Program-made: the position numbers and the translations under genes
Origin: Opitutia bacterium Tous-C4FEB
Lineage (GTDB): Bacteria; Verrucomicrobiota; Verrucomicrobiia; Opitutales; Opitutaceae
Assembly (NCBI GenBank): GCA_002304445.1
Contig: NEVA01000009.1
Span: 1 to 64,000, forward strand
Direction of reading: 5' to 3'
Length of the DNA stretch: 64,000 bases
Notes under the pieces: model-generated
Told to the model about the DNA's origin: nothing
What the model saw: the letters and a program-made list of their open reading frames with translations, nothing else
Databases searched by the model: none
Part shown: one piece after another, positions 1-5,357 of the stretch
Numbering within the stretch: the stretch's first letter is position 1
Layout: every line of letters starts with the position of its first letter

Positions 1-1122
1 GGCGGCTCCTTTTGGCAGCGGCGCGTTCAGCGCGGCGGCGACCGTGGCGAGCACGTCGGGCAACGCGATGACCTGGTCGCTCACGGTGTTGGCGGGCACG
101 CGGCCCGGCCAGCGGACGAGAAACGGCTCGCGGAAACCTCCTTCGTATTCCGTGTGCTTACCGCCGCGCAGAGGCCCGTTGATGGCGAGACCGGCCTCCA
201 TCGCTTGGCCCGTGTTGCCGTTCCCGGCGTCGACGATTCCGCCGTTGTCGCTGGTGAAAATCATGAGCGTGTCCTCGGTGAGCTTGAGGCGGTCAAGGGT
301 CGCGAGCACTTGGCCGACGCTCCAGTCGAGCTCTTGGATGAAGTCGCCGTAGCTGCCGTTGAGGCTGCCGGTGAACTGCGCATTCGGCGCGATGGGGCCG
401 TGCACGGCGTTGGGCGCGAAGTAGAGAAAGAACGGGGCCGCGTGATTGGCTTCAAGCCAGTCGGTCGCCTTCGCGGTGATGGTTTCCATGATGCGGGCGA
501 CGACCCGCGGGGCCCGAATGCCGGTCGTCGTGCCCTTCGCGCCCGCGCTGGCGACGACGACCTTTTCGCCGGGAATCCGGCCGACGATGTTTTCATTTTC
601 GATGAACGCATGCGGGCCGTTGCCGGGGTTGCCGCCGAGGCCAAAAAAATAATCGAAGCCGACGGCGCGTGGGCCGGGTTGCAACGGTTGGTTCCAATCC
701 GTCGCCGCAACGCCGGTCTGCAAACCGAGGTGCCACTTGCCGAATGCGCCGGTGCGGTAGCCGTGGGCTTTGCAGAGCGAGGCGAGCGTGAGCCGGGCCG
801 GCTCGATGTGGAGCGGCGCAGTCGGCATGAGGACTTCGCCGTCCTTGATCGAAGTGCGCCAGAAATAGCGGCCGGTCAGCAAGCCGTAGCGCGAGGGCGA
901 GCAGACGGAGCTAGGAGCGTAGGCGTGGGTGAACCTCCGGCCCTCGCGCGCAAGGCGATCAAGATTCGGCGTGTTCAGGCCCTTGGCGCCGTAGGGCGTG
1001 GAGGAACCCCAGCCGAAGTCATCGGCGAGGATGACGATGATGTTGGGCTTGAGAGAATCCGCGGCGCCGAGGGCCACGCCACCCAGCGCGATGAAGCAAG
1101 CGACCAGCGGAAGAAGTTTCAT
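1..1122 (-). CDS. Exported S1-family sulfatase, C-terminus cut by window edge
   Basis: Sulfatase that would hydrolyse sulfate esters, probably on a polysaccharide outside the cytoplasm. The first ~20 residues are a Sec signal peptide (MKLLPLVACF, then a hydrophobic core ending ALGA). The metal-binding stretch NIIVILADDFG follows at about residue 27. The formylglycine motif C-S-P-S-R starts at Cys74, so this is a Cys-type enzyme needing a formylglycine-generating enzyme, which is not in the window. A GKWHLG motif lies further on. The frame is open to base 1, so only the first 374 residues are present. It starts 11 bp downstream of another sulfatase gene on the same strand, which suggests one transcript. 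The substrate cannot be told from sequence. Confidence 0.93.
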   Translation of the reverse strand, partial: MKLLPLVACFIALGGVALGAADSLKPNIIVILADDFGWGSSTPYGAKGLNTPNLDRLAREGRRFTHAYAPSSVCSPSRYGLLTGRYFWRTSIKDGEVLMPTAPLHIEPARLTLASLCKAHGYRTGAFGKWHLGLQTGVAATDWNQPLQPGPRAVGFDYFFGLGGNPGNGPHAFIENENIVGRIPGEKVVVASAGAKGTTTGIRAPRVVARIMETITAKATDWLEANHAAPFFLYFAPNAVHGPIAPNAQFTGSLNGSYGDFIQELDWSVGQVLATLDRLKLTEDTLMIFTSDNGGIVDAGNGNTGQAMEAGLAINGPLRGGKHTEYEGGFREPFLVRWPGRVPANTVSDQVIALPDVLATVAAALNAPLPKGAA

Positions 1123-1133
1123 GGTGGCTCCAA

Positions 1134-2603
1134 TCAGTGTTTCGCTGGCTGCTTTTTTTGCTTCGAGAGCGCTTCGGATCGGCCCGGATTTTTCGGAGTC
1201 TTCATGACGGCGAATTCACGCGGCTTCACGTCGTCGGCGAGCATTGCGGCGACGAGGGGATCACGGTTGGCCTCGCCCCATTTTCGCAGCCGCTCGCGCA
1301 TGGCGAGGAGCGTTTCGCGATGGGCGGGATCGCGGGCGAGGTTGATTGTCTCGCCGGGATCCTTTTCGAGATCGACGAGCGATTCACGGCTCCGGCCGTG
1401 GACATAAACGCAGTATTTGTAGCGGTCGGTGCGAATCATGCGGCCTTCGGTCGTTGGCACGTTGCCGTCGACGGCGTGGGTTTGAGACATGTTGTTCTGC
1501 ACGACGACATCGTCGCGCCATGCAGCGACGGACTGGCCCAACGCGATGGGGCGGAGGCTGGCCCCGGAAAGTTTCGCGGGCCGGGCGAGGCCGGCAAAGT
1601 CGAGCATCGTCGGCAGAATGTCGGTTCCGGTGTTGGTAAAATTCTCCGACACGCGGCCGTTGCGCTGACCCGGGACGCTGATGATGAACGGCACGCGGGC
1701 CGCCTCCTCGAGGAATACCGTCTTTTGGTTGAAGCCGTGCGCCCCGGCGCATTCGCCGTGGTCGGCGGTGAAGACGATGAGCGTGTTTTCCTCGAGTCCG
1801 GCGGCTTGGAGCGCGTCGAGGACTTTGCCGATCTCTGCGTCGACCTTTTCGATGAGCCGGTAGTAACCCCAGCGGAGGGCCTGCCACATCTTCGGGTTGA
1901 AATTGCCGACCGGGAACTGGGGATTGGCGTGATATCCGGCGCGGATGCGGGTCATGGTGTCGGGCTCGTCGCGGGGCGGCGCGAGATTGGCCGGCGCGGG
2001 CGGGAGTTTTGCGGCGGTCGCCGGCGGTTCGCCGATCGGGCCGTTGTTCAGTTCCTGGCCGCGCGCGAGTTCGCAGACGTTGTGCGGATTGAGAAAGCTG
2101 ACGACGAGGAGGAACGGCTTGTCGTGTTTCTTCCCAAGAAATTTCGTGGCGAGCACGGCGTTCTCAGCGTCAATGTGGCCGGTTTCGAGCGTTTCAAAGC
2201 CGTGTGACTTGGTTGCACCCTCGTCGTAGGCGAGATGCCATTTGCCGAAGTAGGCGGTTCGGTAGCCGGCTTGGCGGAAGTGGGTGCCCATCGTGACGAA
2301 CTCGGCGGCATCGAGCGTGGTCTTGGTGTTGTCGGTGATCCCGGTCTCGTGCGGATAGCGACCGGTGAAGATCGAGTTGCGCGCGGGCATGCAGAGAGGG
2401 TTGGGGGTGTAGGCGCGCGAGAAAAACGTGCCGCGGGCGGCGAGTCGGTCGAGCGCGGGCGTCTTCAAGTAGCGGTCGCCCATCCGGCAACTCAACGCGT
2501 CGGCCGAGTGCTGGTCGGTCATGATGAAAACGATGTTGGGCGGCGCAGCGGACGCGACGGCGAGGGAGGCGGCGAAAGCGAGGCAGGCTAGGATAATCTT
2601 CAT
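1134..2603 (-). CDS. Exported S1-family sulfatase
   Basis: A 489-residue sulfatase with a clear signal peptide (MKIILACLAFAASLAVASA). The N-terminal metal site reads NIVFIMTDQH (Asp30), and the formylglycine motif is C-M-P-A-R at Cys71. GKWHLAY and the later FTADHGE stretch are also typical of the family. The protein ends in a short basic tail (SKQKKQPAKH) beyond the sulfatase fold. It is the middle gene of a three-gene minus-strand run: a BNR_4 propeller protein upstream, 60 bp away, and a second sulfatase 11 bp downstream. The pairing suggests successive desulfation steps on one polymer, which is inference. Length is normal for the family. Confidence 0.94.
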   Translation of the reverse strand: MKIILACLAFAASLAVASAAPPNIVFIMTDQHSADALSCRMGDRYLKTPALDRLAARGTFFSRAYTPNPLCMPARNSIFTGRYPHETGITDNTKTTLDAAEFVTMGTHFRQAGYRTAYFGKWHLAYDEGATKSHGFETLETGHIDAENAVLATKFLGKKHDKPFLLVVSFLNPHNVCELARGQELNNGPIGEPPATAAKLPPAPANLAPPRDEPDTMTRIRAGYHANPQFPVGNFNPKMWQALRWGYYRLIEKVDAEIGKVLDALQAAGLEENTLIVFTADHGECAGAHGFNQKTVFLEEAARVPFIISVPGQRNGRVSENFTNTGTDILPTMLDFAGLARPAKLSGASLRPIALGQSVAAWRDDVVVQNNMSQTHAVDGNVPTTEGRMIRTDRYKYCVYVHGRSRESLVDLEKDPGETINLARDPAHRETLLAMRERLRKWGEANRDPLVAAMLADDVKPREFAVMKTPKNPGRSEALSKQKKQPAKH

Positions 2604-2663: not shown

Positions 2664-4133
2664 TCAGGGATCTTCGTCGTCGAGGCCGAGTTTTTTCTTC
2701 TTCTTGGCTTCGGCTTTGGCCCGGTTCGGTGGCGGGAGGGACTTGATTGCTTCGAGCCGGTCACCCAGCTGACTGGCCTCGGCGGCGAGACGGCCCAGCG
2801 GACCGCGGGCGCCGACCAGAAACATTCGGCGATATAAGTGCGGTTCCGTCGCGTCGCGTGAGCCGAGCAGCATCACGGCGTCCGGGTGCGCGTTTCGCAC
2901 GATCGCCGTTGTGCCGAAAGAGAGCACCTTTGAGGAGATGAGAATGTTGCCCTTGGTCCAAGTGAGGCCGCCGTCCTCGGTGTTCCACCAGCCGATCTCG
3001 TTGTCGCCGTCGTGCTCAGTAGAGAGAATCATTCGCACGGAGAGCGGGGAATCGACGATGAAGTCGCCGTCGCCCACGCGTCCATGGCCGGCGCCGACGC
3101 TCACGGGCTTTTGCCAGGCTTTGCCGTCCCAACGATAGTAGCGGATGTCGCGGCCCACCGGGAAAGCGACATGGGGGTAGCCGTTGGCGTCGACGTGGCA
3201 CGTGCCGTGAGTCGAGCGCACGGTGCCGGTCGCTTCGATGAGAGTGAACCGATCGGCGGACTCTTTGGTGACCGGCAGCGTGAGGCGGTCGCCCTGCACG
3301 TTCGTCCAGTTACCATCGCGAGCATTCATCTGCATGAAATAGACGTTTTGCCGGTGGGCGTTGTGCTTCGGATTCGCGCACGGGTGATAGACGTAGGAGG
3401 CGGTGATGGTTTCGCCGAGACCGGGCTCGAACCACGCATACCAGGAGTCGTTGATCGCAGGCGAAGCGGAGCTGACCTTGTGTTTGAGGACGGAGACGGG
3501 TGCGGAAAACGTCAGACCGTCGTTGGTGGATTTTTGATAAACCCAGTCGCTGCGATGGCCGCCGTGGCGATAGAACAAATACAGGTCACCGCTCGGAAAT
3601 TTGACCCACTGGTTGTAGGTGCCGAACGGCGGAAGGTTGTCGACGACGCGCCAAGCGGAGATGTCACCGGGCTTTTGTGAGACGACGTGGGTCATCTTGC
3701 CCTTTGTCCCCATGAAGAATTCGCCAAGCGGATTCTTTCCGAATTTGGGGTCGCCGCCATGCGAGCCGAAAACGAGGTGAATGTAGCCCTTGCGATCGAT
3801 GACGAGCGCGGGCTTGCCGTGGTTGTCGAGCTCGCTGGGGTCGATCTGGTCCGGTGATTTGCCCATGAGGTTCACGCCGGCTTGGACGGGGCCGGTCCAC
3901 TTGCCCGTGGCGTGATTGTAGGCAGCCACGTAGGGATCCTCGTGCGGGCCCTGATAGGCGACGTAGGTCACGCCTTGGTAATGCTCGGCCGCGGGGTGTT
4001 GGAGGGAACTGACGGGATTGCCGTAGCCGTTGTCGGTGAAGAACGGAACTTCCGCCGCGATGGCGAGCGTTGCCATTTTGAGTGCGGCGGCGAGCGCGGC
4101 GAGAAGTCTGCAGGGGAAATTCAAGAGTGACAT
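2664..4133 (-). CDS. Exported BNR_4 beta-propeller protein, candidate PL24/PL25-like ulvan lyase
   Basis: A 489-residue exported protein. I chose the start at 4133 because it begins a signal peptide (MSLLNFPCRL, hydrophobic to about residue 27); the frame is open 49 codons further upstream without signal-like sequence. The body has propeller-like repeats and the BNR_4 pattern D-N-H-G-K-P followed by IHLVFGSHGG. His105, His125, Tyr173 and Arg189 stand at spacings of 20, 48 and 16. I recall the catalytic His, His, Tyr and Arg of the PL25 ulvan lyase PLSV_3936 at 123, 143, 188 and 204 (spacings 20, 45, 16). It is upstream of two sulfatases in one orientation. The tail is Lys-rich and acidic (KAEAKKKKKLGLDDEDP). 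The BNR_4 assignment is firm; lyase activity is inferred. Confidence 0.85.
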   Translation of the reverse strand: MSLLNFPCRLLAALAAALKMATLAIAAEVPFFTDNGYGNPVSSLQHPAAEHYQGVTYVAYQGPHEDPYVAAYNHATGKWTGPVQAGVNLMGKSPDQIDPSELDNHGKPALVIDRKGYIHLVFGSHGGDPKFGKNPLGEFFMGTKGKMTHVVSQKPGDISAWRVVDNLPPFGTYNQWVKFPSGDLYLFYRHGGHRSDWVYQKSTNDGLTFSAPVSVLKHKVSSASPAINDSWYAWFEPGLGETITASYVYHPCANPKHNAHRQNVYFMQMNARDGNWTNVQGDRLTLPVTKESADRFTLIEATGTVRSTHGTCHVDANGYPHVAFPVGRDIRYYRWDGKAWQKPVSVGAGHGRVGDGDFIVDSPLSVRMILSTEHDGDNEIGWWNTEDGGLTWTKGNILISSKVLSFGTTAIVRNAHPDAVMLLGSRDATEPHLYRRMFLVGARGPLGRLAAEASQLGDRLEAIKSLPPPNRAKAEAKKKKKLGLDDEDP

Positions 4134-4259: not shown

Positions 4260-5357
4260 CTGAACGCCACGCTCGCCCATTTTAGTCCCGCAGAACTAGA
4301 GTCCCGTTTCGTCGTCTGGGGTTACAAGCCGTCCCATGCAGCGCGGATTTTGCGGGCTTTTTTTGCAACCGGTGGCGAGGTGGGCGCGGCGACAGGATTG
4401 ACGTTGCCCGGCGGTTTGACGGAGCGGATTGAGACGGCGTTGGCTTTGCCCACTGGAGTGCCGGCGACGAGCTCACTTGCGGTCCGGCAGGTGGCGAGCG
4501 ACGGTACGACGAAGTTACTGCTGCGGTTGCACGACGGGCGCACGGTCGAATCGGTGTTGATGCCCGACTACCACGCGGATCGCGCGGCGGGCTGTATCTC
4601 ATCACAGGTGGGCTGCGCGATGGGTTGCGATTTCTGCGCGACGACGAAAACCGGATTCGAGCGCAATTTATCGGCCGGCGAAATCGTGGAGCAGTTTCTG
4701 GCGCTACGACGTGAGGCCCTCGCCGGCGGGCGGACGCTGCGCACGCTGGTTTTCATGGGCATGGGCGAGCCGATGCTCAATCTCGACGCGGTGCTCACAG
4801 CGATCGACCGCATAGCCGACAACCGGCTCGGCGCGCTGGGCTGGCGGCAGATTACGGTTTCCACCGTGGGGATTGTGCCGGGGATTGAGGCGCTCACGGC
4901 GACGGGTCTCAACGTGCACCTCGCGGTGTCGCTACATGCGCCCGACGACGCGACGCGGGCCCGCTTGCTCCCGATGGGACGGCGATTTGCGATCGCCGAG
5001 ATCCTCGCGGCGGCCGACCGTTTTCAAGCCAGCCGCGGGCGGCCGGTGACGATCCAGTATTGTCTGCTGCGGGGAGTAAACGACACGCCGGAGCACGCGC
5101 ACGCGCTGGCGGGGGTGCTCGGGAAACGGCGGATGCACGTGAACCTGCTGCGCTACAATCCGACGGGCCTGAGTCTGCTGGGCCGGAGCTACGAACCTTC
5201 GGACGACGCGACGTCGGATGCGTTTGCTTCGATCCTCCACGGGCAGGGTTTGGTAGCGCACCATCGGCGTTCGCGCGGGCCGGACATCGACGCGGCCTGC
5301 GGACAACTGCGACGACGGGTGGCGGCTGAAGCGATCGATCACAGCGGTAGTCTCTGA
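4260..5357 (+). CDS. rlmN: Radical SAM 23S rRNA (adenine-2503-C2)-methyltransferase
   Basis: RlmN/Cfr-family enzyme that methylates A2503 of 23S rRNA, and in E. coli also A37 of some tRNAs. The 4Fe-4S motif C-A-M-G-C-D-F-C is present. A Cys lies seven residues before it (GCISSQVGC), and the methyl-carrying Cys sits near the C-terminus in DIDAACGQL; both match E. coli Cys118 and Cys355 in context. The start is a problem. The first conventional start is TTG at 4350, giving 335 residues. In-frame sequence upstream (PAELESRFVVWGYKPSHAAR) looks like the normal RlmN N-terminal helical domain. The only start-like codon there is CTG at 4260, which gives 365 residues and is used here. The frame is blocked by TGA at 4248. 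No clear Shine-Dalgarno precedes either. Confidence 0.9.
   Translation: MNATLAHFSPAELESRFVVWGYKPSHAARILRAFFATGGEVGAATGLTLPGGLTERIETALALPTGVPATSSLAVRQVASDGTTKLLLRLHDGRTVESVLMPDYHADRAAGCISSQVGCAMGCDFCATTKTGFERNLSAGEIVEQFLALRREALAGGRTLRTLVFMGMGEPMLNLDAVLTAIDRIADNRLGALGWRQITVSTVGIVPGIEALTATGLNVHLAVSLHAPDDATRARLLPMGRRFAIAEILAAADRFQASRGRPVTIQYCLLRGVNDTPEHAHALAGVLGKRRMHVNLLRYNPTGLSLLGRSYEPSDDATSDAFASILHGQGLVAHHRRSRGPDIDAACGQLRRRVAAEAIDHSGSL

Follow-up and report, generated by a model that had tools for sequence, protein, structure and literature searches.

The window, that is, the whole stretch of 64,000 nucleotides analysed here, opens with a probable lyase gene and two sulfatase genes on the same strand:

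2664–4133, minus strand: lyase gene, 489 aa, PL25 family, with a signal-like N-terminus, a seven-bladed β-propeller and a lysine-rich C-terminal tail
1134–2603, minus strand: sulfatase 1 (PF00884), 489 aa, complete, 60 bases behind the lyase gene
1–1122, minus strand: sulfatase 2, 11 bases behind sulfatase 1, 374 aa seen, cut by the contig end

The initial annotation had reported the open frame at 2664–4133 without its strand; the frame is there, on the minus strand. Translation might also begin at an ATG further out, at 4280, and would then give a protein of 538 aa, but the 489-aa form agrees with the start codons of the relatives, which were picked mechanically by script. A signal sequence was recognised by eye at the N-terminus, from which the lyase is predicted to be exported from the cell. 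The lysine-rich tail (2667–2789, minus strand) begins after Arg448.

Base 1 of the window is base 1 of contig C39, and the contig ends inside sulfatase 2, so that the flank beyond is absent. The sulfatase motif C-x-P-x-R is present in both sulfatases (CMPAR, CSPSR). The annotation had described two exported sulfatases directly downstream of the lyase. Both genes are found there on the same strand, the second cut by the contig end, and the export of their products is suggested by signal sequences seen by eye. Because the upstream frame (4350–5357), judged by eye to be RlmN-like (an rRNA methyltransferase), runs on the opposite strand, the lyase gene probably heads the cluster.

Family and fold of the lyase

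Profile searches named the protein weakly. BNR_4 was the sole Pfam family above its cut-off (69.7 bits), and an NCBIfam search returned nothing near the cut-off (17.7 bits against 700), which fits the earlier remark that such proteins are usually left as 'BNR repeat-containing'. A phmmer search of the PDB, in contrast, matched PLSV_3936 (5UAM) over residues 24–449 at E 1.2e-117. Beyond 5UAM and the mutant entry 5UAS, whose chain carries Asn opposite His105 in the alignment, the next-best match had an E value of 0.75, and no PL24 chain was among the four matches with E up to 10. Because the alignment with PLSV_3936 is full-length at this E value, we regard the relationship to PL25 as settled. 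Identity between the two proteins was 45% in the sequence alignment and 44% in the structural superposition.

An AlphaFold2 model, computed from the window protein aligned to 40 relatives, had a pLDDT of 91.8 and a pTM of 0.90. In VIA-align it superposed on 5UAS with a Z-score of 57.1 and 1.7 Å over 422 residues (1.7–1.8 Å across 5UAM and 5UAS); among the matches listed, which define the families covered by this ranking, all non-PL25 ones scored Z 37 or less. PL24 (Z 24–25, 14–16% identity) and the GH145/PL42 propellers (Z 32–37, 15–18% identity) were accordingly rejected as the closest family. Membership of PL40 was rejected as well, since the model has the PLSV_3936 propeller and Uly1040, a PL40 enzyme, has a fold that its authors call distinct from it (PMC12915356; here and below, papers are cited for the portions of their text consulted). 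The alignment with PL40 that the annotation had proposed is for this reason of no help, while its structural check came out for PL25 by a large margin over PL24. The window protein also groups with PL25 and not with other BNR_4 proteins, so that neither of the outcomes named in the annotation as refuting its reading was obtained. The genome encodes another BNR_4 protein (L010:9549-11003, on G000:C30), which was considered as a further PL25 member and set aside as it is without the four-residue pattern described below; it adjoins a frame judged by eye to resemble a TonB receptor.

The GH145/PL42 enzymes, as the next nearest folds, raise the question of another substrate. The His-Tyr-Arg triad is, in print, common to both groups, Bacteroides GH145 proteins act as lyases on Wi-AGP, with a sulfated target thought probable (PMC8406133), and a related fungal enzyme is a lyase for Rha-GlcA (PMC8377490). 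The window lyase could accordingly act on Rha-α-1,4-GlcA units of (sulfated) arabinogalactan proteins from algae or aquatic plants, like the GH145/PL42 lyase site. We consider this improbable, as PL25 is far nearer to the protein in both identity and Z-score.

Homology over the lyase domain, the superposed propeller, the catalytic His, Tyr and Arg with the helper His and Tyr, and the zinc ligands all place the protein in PL25. The gene thus most likely encodes an exported PL25 ulvan-type lyase, its activity being predicted from sequence and model, and the earlier suggestion of a lyase candidate gains support from both. Taking family and mechanism together, we think it quite probable that the protein is a PL25 polysaccharide lyase that employs the PL25 β-elimination mechanism.

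Active-site and zinc residues

The annotation had pointed to four residues of the lyase. They and the zinc ligands are encoded as follows:

3819–3821, minus strand: codon of His105, equivalent to His123 of PLSV_3936, one of the acid/base pair
3759–3761, minus strand: codon of His125, equivalent to His143 of PLSV_3936, which helps to neutralise the carboxylate
3615–3617, minus strand: codon of Tyr173, equivalent to Tyr188 of PLSV_3936, the other member of the acid/base pair
3567–3569, minus strand: codon of Arg189, equivalent to Arg204 of PLSV_3936, which neutralises the uronate carboxylate
3363–3557, minus strand: span of the zinc ligands His193, His250, Cys252 and His257, equivalent to His208, His264, Cys266 and His278 of PLSV_3936

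All four residues are present with the spacing 20-48-16 that had been given for them, and the PLSV_3936 positions quoted alongside (123, 143, 188 and 204) fall on the residues aligned with them. From superposition and alignment, the four would also lie near each other in the modelled fold. Tyr232 aligns with Tyr246 of PLSV_3936, and the substrate contacts Asn122 and Lys125 of that enzyme are likewise matched; the list of residues compared, including Asn122, Lys125, Tyr246 and the zinc ligands, is that of PMC13193363. The spacing by itself is only suggestive of PL25: a loose form of the pattern occurred in one of the 143 stop-to-stop segments of at least 150 aa in the window, the lyase itself, but it also arose in 37 of 5000 shuffles of the lyase protein.

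Conservation was assessed in an alignment of 82 rows (80 loci, the window and 5UAM). His125, Tyr173, Tyr232 and each zinc ligand were kept in 82 of 82 rows, and His105 in 81, the remaining row being without that region. Arg189 was also kept in 81 rows; the exception, a lake relative (L019:7977-9434), has Trp instead, which may mark an inactive copy, a sequencing error or a new use. Points against the assignment are that the position of the Lys125 contact varies (58 Lys, 23 Arg, one gap) and that two surface loops are unlike those of PLSV_3936. The conservation bears on whether the window protein could be a PL25 relative without catalysis, a propeller that only binds carbohydrate. Among the propellers listed for the model, those at Z 23–27 are largely lectins, and the Trp-bearing relative points the same way, but a silent protein would not need the catalytic residues, each of which is retained in 81 or all 82 rows, the window included. 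We regard a silent propeller as highly improbable.

Proposed mechanism

Because of this residue conservation, we infer that the window protein works like the characterised PL25 enzymes. The seven-bladed propeller of the exported lyase would bind a chain in which L-rhamnose, probably 3-sulfated, is (1→4)-linked with glucuronic or iduronic acid. Arg189, aided by His125 and Tyr232, would neutralise the carboxylate at subsite +1, with Tyr173 as the base and His105 as the acid; a zinc ion held by His193, His250, Cys252 and His257 would sit near the active site. Cleavage of the chain by β-elimination, presumably in endo mode, would leave a 4,5-unsaturated uronic acid, which absorbs at 235 nm. Both sulfatases of the cluster probably desulfate this polymer or its fragments, at whichever point in this putative order of steps.

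The roles follow those described for PL25, in which Tyr is the base, His the acid, Arg neutralises the carboxylate and His143 helps (PMC11395424). In a docked model of the PL25 enzyme SH2L_Ulv3, His sits close to C5 and Tyr close to the leaving oxygen (PMC13193363), a placement that would swap the base and acid roles of Tyr and His; the two sources differ in this respect. Replacement of either the matching His or the matching Tyr with Ala inactivates SH2L_Ulv3 (PMC13193363).

Relatives and a branch of mainly lake bacteria

Scanning GTDB genomes gave 160 relatives, of which the nearest 80 were kept; the resulting tree of 80 sequences is no census, and the truncated loci L031 and L045 were left out of it. 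The tree splits, with an SH-aLRT support of 100 and no root inferred, into 40 rows with the window and 40 marine rows with 5UAM (PLSV_3936) and Alteromonas. The split persists when six further rows with long branches or odd composition are removed (74 rows, 35 + 39). By habitat label, the window's 40 rows comprise 35 lake, four unsure and one marine, the labels being assigned from record titles and, for F1, by assumption; the record codes RE, RH, MiE, ZE and Jr we presume to be lake sites. PMC8121793 names Loclat, Erken, Kiruna and Alinen as lakes or sites.

The lake branch contains Verrucomicrobiota, Hydrogenedentota, three Planctomycetota, one Kiritimatiellota and one Acidobacteriota, the marine branch Bacteroidota, Pseudomonadota and one marine verrucomicrobium (Pelagicoccus). 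Pontiella sulfatireligans, a marine isolate, sits in the lake branch; a word search of the portion of its description consulted (PMC7356697) found no mention of ulvan. The C-terminal tail has a median of 40 residues in the lake branch versus 11 in the marine rows. The nearest relative of the lyase, at 90% identity, is from an Opitutus MAG (L011). At E 1e-30 the lyase is found in three of 387 genomes of a phylum sample and four of 61 of a family sample, the window's own genome counted in both.

Some lake genomes hold two PL25 genes. Locus L014 has two PL25-type frames, and the MAGs RH-23may17-1042 (L018, L025) and MJ-time_bin-1056 (L033, L036) each have one PL25 gene on each of two contigs.

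Within the openly licensed literature, in the portions consulted (PMC8406133, PMC6431674 and PMC9676036 included), we found no paper on PL25 in lake bacteria. PMC9676036 surveys PL25 and other enzymes for green seaweeds across phyla, Verrucomicrobia included, and the portion consulted makes no mention of lakes. What is new here is the branch: a PL25 lyase in an uncharacterised branch of mainly lake bacteria, for which we found no assay in the openly licensed literature.

Locus context and the degradation pathway

The order of lyase and sulfatase genes is conserved in the Opitutae part of the lake branch. Twenty-three Opitutae-type loci have DNA downstream; counting only homologs of the window's two sulfatases, 18 of them have one on the same strand whose start lies no more than 250 bases behind the PL25 gene. 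Fourteen of these 18 are of the sulfatase-1 type (76–95% identity), and in 10 Opitutae-type loci a sulfatase-2 homolog (at least 61%) also lies downstream; the other five of the 23 have neither sulfatase directly downstream. Such a downstream sulfatase is present in only one of the 17 other lake-branch loci, several of the non-Opitutae ones having a sulfatase just upstream. Sulfatases near PL25 are equally common in the two branches (30 of 39 marine loci, 30 of 41 lake-branch loci), and the window's own genome, a 3.76 Mb draft, has 85 sulfatase (PF00884) matches. For both reasons, the neighbouring sulfatase does not name the substrate. Many of the sulfatases listed for this genome lie on contig C1, at about 138–190 kb.

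The branches differ in other partner enzymes. GH106, GH88/105 and GH78 occur in 20, 9 and 11 of 39 marine loci versus 0, 0 and 2 of 41 lake-branch loci, as counted with profiles that were built from mostly marine clusters and may miss remote lake forms, and in lake loci that are shorter in total (500,615 versus 631,956 bases). Among loci longer than 16 kb, the counts for lake versus marine are 0/17 versus 18/33 for GH106, 0/17 versus 8/33 for GH88/105, 2/17 versus 11/33 for GH78 and 11/17 versus 29/33 for sulfatases.

GH88/105 is the usual next enzyme after an ulvan lyase. At genome level it was matched in 24 of 24 marine PL25 genomes versus 13 of 25 lake genomes (10 of 25 above 50 bits), in a sample that represents 24 of 39 marine and 25 of 41 lake-branch loci, with genome completeness unstated and with Fisher tests on these counts confounded by the kinship of the genomes. 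The idea that lake PL25 genomes wholly lack GH88/105 was dropped in view of the 13 matches. Ulvan-utilisation loci are recognised by sulfatases beside the lyase, which are present here, by rhamnosidases beside it, where the contig breaks off inside sulfatase 2, and by GH88/GH105 in the genome; the window's own genome, a draft 96.3% complete, gave 0 matches to PF07470. It has one partial GH78-type match (76.7 bits), elsewhere than at the lyase locus, and a KduI (226 bits), an enzyme that handles released unsaturated uronate. With 0 GH88/GH105 matches and a single partial GH78-type match, this genome does not show the usual ulvan pathway in full. The lyase is canonical; the pathway in the lake branch may be otherwise.

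Another protein was noticed beside lake PL25-sulfatase clusters (L020:6773-8980 and L048:13855-16056, partial in L022 and L029). It has 734–736 aa, appears by eye to be exported and occurs in four of 41 lake-branch loci. Among the family genomes it was found in five of 61, two of them among the four with PL25, and not in the window's own. It has no Pfam match, and the L048 copy had no PDB match better than E 0.26. An AlphaFold2 model of the L020 copy, from four sequences only, had a pLDDT of 43 and is uninformative as to fold. The protein contains an HHGHADEN...DGGYR stretch, which is reminiscent of heparinase II/III-type lyases, and is possibly a new lyase family.

Which polymer would the lyase cleave?

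The likely substrate is a sulfated rhamnose-uronate polymer. Ulvan is unproven as the natural substrate of the window lyase, since its nearest kin are mostly from lake genomes. Seaweed ulvan should be scarce in lakes, and the polymer of the lake branch may instead be a sulfated rhamno-uronan from freshwater algae, cyanobacteria or plants. A more far-reaching view, put forward tentatively, is that the second PL25 branch, mainly of lake Verrucomicrobiota and Hydrogenedentota, cleaves an undescribed sulfated rhamno-uronan of freshwater algae or cyanobacteria, in a pathway that in many genomes is without GH88/GH105, the unsaturated uronate being removed by another enzyme. Cleavage of ulvan proper and cleavage of arabinogalactan proteins differ from the PL25 lyase proposed above in substrate only.

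The literature consulted on freshwater sulfated polysaccharides names, in the portions seen, no lake polymer that fits. Sulfated polysaccharides occur in some freshwater Cladophorales; the ones on record are built on arabinose or galactose, and the order is stated to lack uronic acids (PMC7550628). The cyanobacterial polymer synechan contains rhamnose and sulfate and almost no uronic acid, 0.1 mol% in an overproducer (PMC8205485). Neither fits well as a substrate of the lyase. For the sulfatases of freshwater Verrucomicrobia, cyanobacterial and plant polymers have been named as possible sources of targets (PMC5615132).

Alternatively, the enzyme could cleave ulvan proper and so play the part that PL25 lyases have in marine bacteria. 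The residues published for catalysis, substrate contact and zinc binding are conserved, several Ulvophyceae live in fresh water (PMC7550628), and the short zinc loop of the lake proteins, His250-Cys252-His257, is spaced as His240-Cys242-His247 of SH2L_Ulv3, which cleaves ulvan (PMC13193363). The same match led us to discard the short loop as a sign of a new substrate. However, in the window's 23-row clade the other 22 rows all bear a lake or pond label, given from record titles or by presumption, and the scarcity of GH106, GH88/105 and GH78 at lake-branch loci also speaks against ulvan proper. We consider this alternative possible, though doubtful.

The substrate of the lyase touches on a wider question. 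Sulfatases are numerous in freshwater Verrucomicrobia, and it seems unsettled which sulfated polymers these bacteria eat in lakes. A lyase whose bond preference is known from its marine kin, from sulfated rhamnose to uronic acid, offers a handle on this question.

Comparison with known systems

The closest known protein is PLSV_3936 from Pseudoalteromonas sp. PLSV (5UAM, 5UAS), which shares with the window protein near-full-length homology, the fold, the catalytic His, Tyr and Arg, His143, Tyr246, Asn122, Lys125 and the zinc ligands. The window protein differs from it in a zinc loop about seven residues shorter, in a region about 10 residues shorter near 349–358, in three additional residues between the equivalents of His143 and Tyr188, in its added C-terminal tail and in its position in the other branch of the tree.

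SH2L_Ulv3 has the same residues and the same short spacing of the zinc loop as the window protein (PMC13193363). It is a PL25 ulvan lyase, called phylogenetically distinct, from a metagenome enriched on seaweed from an intertidal hot spring, and its nearest relatives are from Flavobacteriaceae, Flammeovirgaceae and Draconibacterium (PMC13193363); the comparison is with its description, outside the present tree.

More distant are the GH145/PL42 enzymes BT3686, BACCELL_00856 and FoRham1, which like the window protein are seven-bladed propellers with the common triad, described in print for GH145. They match the window protein at only 15–18% identity and Z 32–37, and they release terminal rhamnose (PMC8377490, PMC8406133). 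The PL24 lyases LOR_107 and Uly1 resemble it in propeller and substrate class at 14–16% identity and Z 24–25, but in PL24 a His serves as both base and acid (PMC11395424), unlike in PL25.
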